A stretch of DNA of 64,000 nt from Actinomycetes bacterium (GTDB taxonomy: Bacteria > Actinomycetota > Acidimicrobiia > Acidimicrobiales > SZUA-35): assembly GCA_024280015.1 (NCBI GenBank), contig JAJRQY010000133.1, forward strand, positions 1 through 64,000. The letters are read 5' to 3'. The notes under the pieces are model-generated. The model saw only the letters and a program-made list of their open reading frames with translations. It was not told the DNA's origin and did no database searches. Position numbers and translations under genes: made by a program. Shown here piece by piece: positions 60,684 through 61,283 of the stretch (positions are counted from its first letter, which is position 1; each line of letters starts with the position of its first letter).

Positions 60684-61283
60684 CTAGCCAGCAAGGAGAG
60701 CTTCCACGCCCTCGGTCAAACCATCAAGGCCAATGGCCCCGTTGTGGGTGGTTGTTGTACCGTCATCATTAATGAAAACGACTGCTGGCTGAGAGCCAAT
60801 GCCATAGGCGAGCCAGACCCCACCCGTGGTGTCGATGGCATGCTCAAAACCATCTACTCCACCAGTGGCAACGAACGATTCATAGGAAGCATCGTCACCC
60901 TTGCCTGCGACACCAATCACGGTGACGTCGGATCCGTACTTTGCTTGCACCTCTGCGACCGCAGGGGCTTCACGTTGACAAGTAGGTCACCACGGAGCCC
61001 AGAACCAGAGCACGACATCTTTCCCCTGCAGGGCACCAAAGTCGATCTGGTCACCGCTAATGGTGGCCAAGACCTCAGTCGAGCGAGCCTGAGGAGCTTC
61101 CTCGGTTGGTGCCGCAGAGTCGTCGGTTGGTGCTGCAGAGTCGTCGGTGCCCTGGGTCGTCAACGGAGCATCGGTACCCGGCTCTGCAGTCTGCGGATCG
61201 GAACCACATGCGCCGGCCACAAGAGCAGCAGCCATCAGAAGGCCAAGAGCCTTCAGTGATGTCTTGGGTGGTGGAAAGTTCAT
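60684..61283 (-). CDS. TlpA/DsbE-like thioredoxin lipoprotein with in-frame UGA at the active site (probable selenoprotein)
   Basis: 199 residues if the UGA at 60989-60987 is read as selenocysteine (residue 99). The first 98 residues are a lipoprotein signal (ALVAGAC), a Thr/Ser/Glu linker and the start of a thioredoxin fold ending in WFWAPW. After the UGA the same frame continues PTCQREAPAVAEVQAKYGS to a normal stop at 60684. The active site is therefore WAPW-U-P-T-C, where homologues have WCPxC. A GGUC-loop hairpin 22-34 bases downstream fits a bacterial SECIS. It acts outside the membrane as a thiol-disulfide oxidoreductase. Alternatives: nonsense mutation of TGC/TGT, or sequencing error; the intact downstream frame and the hairpin argue against both. 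Confidence 0.82.
60949..60968 (-). promoter_or_regulatory. Putative bacterial SECIS element
   Basis: On the minus-strand transcript, starting 19 bases after the UGA: stem CUGC/GCAG enclosing loop GGUC, extended outward by one C-A mismatch and C-G, C-G and G-U pairs. The loop starts 26 bases after the UGA. Bacterial SECIS hairpins begin at similar distances and carry G and GU early in the loop, as in E. coli fdhF (GGUCU). Confidence 0.6.

Follow-up and report, generated by a model that had tools for sequence, protein, structure and literature searches.

A conserved GGUC-loop hairpin behind the in-frame UGA of an actinobacterial redoxin gene

A redoxin gene with an in-frame UGA

The window analyzed here, i.e., 64,000 nucleotides of contig JAJRQY010000133.1 from a genome of the order Acidimicrobiales (assembly GCA_024280015.1), carries on its minus strand a redoxin gene that contains a single in-frame UGA (Table 1). 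Its reading frame (60684..61283) is open for 98 codons 5' and 100 codons 3' of this UGA, and the product belongs to the thioredoxin-fold redoxins (Pfam matches: Redoxin, 7e-14; AhpC-TSA, 6e-13). The nearest solved relatives, by sequence match to the PDB, are Mycobacterium tuberculosis DsbF (3ios, 2e-26) and MPT53 (1lu4, 2e-24), two secreted disulfide oxidoreductases with which the product has the WxPW-CxxC active site in common. Both have Cys where the redoxin of the window is predicted to have Sec: the first active-site Cys of DsbF and MPT53 aligns with the UGA (WAPW-C-PTC in DsbF, WAPW-U-PTC here). The N-terminus is hydrophobic and ends in Ala-Cys (MAAALVAGAC), which looks like a lipoprotein-type signal. 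The gene thus probably encodes an Mpt53/DsbF-like (DsbE/TlpA) thiol-disulfide oxidoreductase that is predicted to be exported and lipid-anchored.

Table 1 Features of the redoxin locus, in window coordinates.
Feature	Position	Strand	Basis
Predicted selenoprotein gene, 199 residues + stop, one UGA read through	60684..61283	-	Translation
UGA predicted to be read as selenocysteine, residue 99, first Cys of CxxC (WAPW-U-PTC)	60987..60989	-	Alignment to DsbF/MPT53 Cys; UGA at the same codon in 98 distinct homologues
Second active-site Cys codon (UGU); UGA instead in 14 homologues (UxxU)	60978..60980	-	
SECIS hairpin GCC.CUGC-GGUC-GCAG.GGU	60949..60968	-	Fold, covariation
Core stem 5' arm CUGC	60961..60964	-	Compensatory changes at three of four pairs
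Apical GGUC loop (proposed core for SelB binding); first base 27 nt after UGA	60957..60960	-	Homologue contrast, synonymous constraint
Core stem 3' arm GCAG	60953..60956	-	Compensatory changes at three of four pairs

Among known selenoproteins, the product shows the features of the Redoxin/DsbE-like (Mpt53/DsbF) UxxC class, i.e., the Redoxin/AhpC-TSA fold (Pfam and PDB sequence matches) and Sec in place of the first Cys of a CxxC motif for which Cys homologues exist. A table in PMC13188914 lists a Redoxin family selenoprotein (PF08534, UxxC) and a Prx-like thiol:disulfide oxidoreductase (PF00578, UxxC or UxxU); judged by Pfam family and motif alone, the present family resembles these entries in having Sec first in UxxC and in including a UxxU clade. 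We also considered NF041054, the NCBIfam model for ResA-like WAxxUGC selenoproteins. Both are ResA-like thioredoxin-fold selenoproteins with Sec in the active site, but the motif differs (WAPWUPTC here) and the match (1.2e-7, 31.3 bits) lies far below the 300-bit cut-off, so that the product was not assigned to this family.

A homology search covering 298 genomes of this order identified relatives in 108; most have an in-frame TGA, and single genomes hold as many as six redoxin homologues. One UGA-bearing relative (L054) comes from an uncultured Acidimicrobiales bacterium. No redoxin relatives were found in the viral contigs searched. For comparative analyses, we used 98 distinct UGA forms, almost all of them from this order, together with 94 distinct Cys forms that come mainly from other actinobacteria. 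Two further UGA redoxin paralogues lie in the genome of the window, the closest of which (L018, G000:C55, 2-1345) adjoins a gene resembling a heavy-metal P-type ATPase.

A rival reading takes the UGA as a true stop, with the gene a pseudogene or the UGA a sequencing error, and the hairpin irrelevant; standard annotation would end the gene at the UGA, and the listed open reading frames break there. Against this, 98 homologues retain a conserved, uninterrupted frame on either side of the UGA, which always falls at the same active-site Cys; a sequencing error is unlikely given that number of homologues, which includes two paralogues from this very genome, and the selenocysteine machinery co-occurs. 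We regard a true stop as exceedingly improbable.

The hairpin as a single sequence

On the minus strand, positions 60968-60949 read GCCCCUGCGGUCGCAGAGGU and fold as (((.((((....)))).))) with a free energy of -8.5 kcal/mol. The pairing is the one drawn in the earlier note from the sequence alone: CUGC/GCAG around GGUC and, past one C.A mismatch, C-G, C-G, and G-U. The hairpin lies within coding sequence (EAPAVAEV of the redoxin) and leaves the frame intact, again as proposed.

In the SECIS element of Escherichia coli fdhF, the GGUC core sits in a small loop at the apex of a hairpin within the coding region, right after the UGA and at a UGA-to-loop distance of 18 nt. The hairpin of the window has the same core, which we take to be the SelB recognition core as in fdhF, likewise in a small apical loop within the coding region just 3' of the UGA. 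It differs from fdhF in its spacing (26 nt), in its 4-nt loop closed by C-G, in the C.A mismatch four pairs below the loop, and in its host gene.

As restated in PMC13188914, the consensus bSECIS model of Zhang and Gladyshev (2005) has a loop of 3–9 nt, an upper stem of ≥4 bp, a G at the first or second loop position with another G after it, a distance of 16–37 nt from the UGA, and a minimum free energy ≤ -7.5. Against rules of this kind (with the upper stem set to 4–16 bp and G or U as the usual base after the G at the first or second loop position), the hairpin lies 3' of an in-frame UGA within the coding region, has a 4-nt loop (GGUC) on 4 bp with pairing resumed past one mismatch, begins its loop 26 nt after the UGA (60989-60987), within the 16–37 nt range (the earlier note had likewise judged the placement typical of bacterial SECIS elements), and folds below the limit of -7.5 kcal/mol (-8.5 for the 20-mer, -10.7 for 28 nt). 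The genome also encodes SelB, tRNA-Sec, SelA, and SelD. Overall, we found no departures from the model as given in PMC13188914, and the redoxin family is unusually strict in loop and spacing.

These generic rules, in turn, discriminate poorly: at a 4-bp stem, they are passed by 92/98 UGA homologues and by 60/96 Cys homologues. The 20-mer is matched or exceeded in stability by 10 of 200 shuffles (z = -1.8), and across the 64-kb window, GGUC hairpins with four or more contiguous pairs number 20. For the window's other GGUC hairpins with a UGA 16–37 nt upstream, we translated the frames; two have long downstream frames, and none reads as a gene conserved on both sides. An Rfam scan of the window returned a tRNA-Gly as its sole match. 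The hairpin on its own is weak evidence, close to chance.

Conservation and covariation among homologues

The comparison of homologues gave a different picture. GGUC stands at the same place in 90/98 UGA forms vs 12/94 Cys forms, and GUC is found at positions 28–30 after the UGA in all 98 UGA forms. Six of the seven stem pairs examined are formed in 80–96% of UGA forms, while position 22-35 is a mismatch in most of them, likewise in the window. Counting paired cells across the stem, we obtained 544 for the UGA forms vs 454 in shuffled data (sd 6.3), an excess of 14 sd, and 307 vs 300 (sd 7.7) for the Cys forms, an excess of <1 sd.

Stem covariation with the loop G and U retained, which the earlier note had named as a check, was indeed found: across 55 UGA sequences aligned without gaps, the covariation score was 0.453 vs 0.135 for shuffled alignments and ≤0.104 for versions with slid partners, and 50 cells had changed on both sides. 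This alignment was picked for the presence of GGUC, while the 98-sequence count was not. Folding of the region 3' of the UGA was also suggested there. RNAalifold recovers the core stem unaided; the 57 nt after the UGA taken alone fold no better than shuffles (62/200 fold equally well; z = -0.44, not significant). Phylogenetically independent contrasts gave no clear contradiction, with 2–3 pairs on starred branches, too sparse for significance.

Codon usage was the next line of evidence. All UGA forms (98/98) use GUC for the Val codon in the loop vs 171/384 (45%) in flanking codons of the same genes (p = 1.6e-29), and the Ala codon preceding it is GCG in 58/58 cases against a background of 82/378 (22%; p = 1.2e-33). 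Conservation and covariation of the hairpin in the 98 UGA homologues are far beyond chance.

These patterns bear on the reading of the hairpin as a coding accident, in which the conserved REAPAVAEV codons are self-complementary by chance. Lone GGUC hairpins are not rare, as the count for the window illustrates, and the stretch does encode protein with a conserved peptide. Yet residues on both arms co-change while the pairs persist (APAVAE, ADAVAS, STVVEV, PSVEEA), the GGUC loop is retained, and synonymous positions do not vary; among Cys homologues whose peptide is similar in this region, most have no such hairpin. We therefore consider a coding accident highly unlikely.

The earlier note would have given up its proposal had the hairpin or the loop GU been missing from homologues with the UGA. 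The GUC present throughout speaks for the proposal, with the qualification that the canonical hairpin is absent in 8/98. These eight, which lack GGUC at the canonical place, include L019, a paralogue on contig C44 of the same genome. Candidate hairpins 34–35 nt after the UGA, with loops AGUUY, AGGUG, or AGGCU, were seen in L019, L211, and L212, and in L151, L171, L185, and L187, a set that combines some of the exceptions with some near relatives, most of them without the canonical hairpin. L199 has AGUC in the loop, and no candidate hairpin passed the filter in L210 and L213. The SECIS may have moved downstream in these sibling UGA homologues.

Selenocysteine machinery and spacing of GGUC hairpins

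The same assembly carries SelA and SelB adjacent at one locus (SelA being named from the sequence of the open reading frame next to SelB), a tRNA-Sec (66.4 bits), SelD (375 bits) with its own in-frame UGA, and a UGA-containing formate dehydrogenase, FdhA (623 bits). The C-terminal end of SelB matches that of E. coli SelB (...TTRKFVLPLLNHFDQTGQTRRR...). The SelD UGA is followed by a GGUC-loop hairpin at 32 nt (L214:1531-1590) and the FdhA UGA by one with GGUCU at 18 nt (L216:1735-1774), presumably the same spacing as in fdhF. Since SelD and FdhA are unrelated to the redoxin, the GGUC hairpins after their UGAs are better explained by a shared core for SelB recognition than by constraint on the coding sequence.

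Across the order, tRNA-Sec was detected in 182 of 298 genomes, and selenocysteine use appears to be widespread in this lineage. Counting UGA-form genomes among the matches listed, from which a few may be absent, tRNA-Sec was found in 86/90 of these vs 96/208 of the remaining genomes (p = 3.7e-18), and was not found in four of the 90. Recoding of the UGA by other means, i.e., as Trp, as Cys, or by plain read-through, has no specific support to set against this machinery (tRNA-Sec, SelA, SelB, and SelD all present), the position of the recoded site at the active-site Cys, a loop matching the SelB recognition core of fdhF, and the UGAs of SelD and FdhA, both classical selenoproteins. We consider such recoding very unlikely.

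What we observed at the locus (the frame, the hairpin, its conservation, covariation, and synonymous constraint, and the machinery in the same genome) is thus best read as a working SECIS at 60949..60968. With high confidence, we propose that the gene product is an Mpt53/DsbF-like oxidoreductase, exported and probably lipid-anchored, in which the nucleophilic Cys is replaced by Sec. SelB binding, Sec insertion, export, and the redox role are inferred from sequence. SelB-GTP carrying Sec-tRNA(Sec) would bind the GGUC loop through the C-terminal winged-helix domain of SelB and, competing with release factor, deliver selenocysteine to the UGA that lies 26 nt upstream; the ribosome would then translate on through the hairpin (EAPAVAEV), and the outcome would be an exported redoxin whose nucleophile is a selenol.

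In 14 homologues (L047, L053, L140, L141, L144, L149, L154, L155, L162, L165, L166, L167, L168, and L191), which group as a single branch in the protein tree (support 91), the arrangement is UGA-N6-UGA. All 14 keep the GGUC loop, 26 nt from the first UGA and 17 nt from the second, on hairpins of 3 to 8 contiguous pairs. Two of them, L149 and L162, are arranged in tandem on the same contig (G171:C253). UxxU selenoproteins have been reported before (PMC2398784; PMC13188914, as Prx-like). We think it somewhat probable that in this clade a single GGUC SECIS serves two UGAs, with a possible diselenide active site, and that siblings with the hairpin perhaps moved to 34–35 nt complete a natural distance-tolerance series for SelB.

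The bacterial SECIS of this gene is genuine, although its mechanism is already known and UxxC redoxin selenoproteins already appear in reviews (PMC13188914). On this evidence, a 20-nt hairpin picked by eye is a real recoding signal, and a redoxin of a little-studied actinobacterial order, predicted to be exported, is most probably a selenoprotein that gene callers split in two. With GGUC 18 nt from the UGA in FdhA, 26 nt in the redoxins, and 32 nt in SelD, all in one genome, and two UGAs before one hairpin in relatives, this spread of spacings would offer a natural set for how distance governs SelB-dependent recoding.
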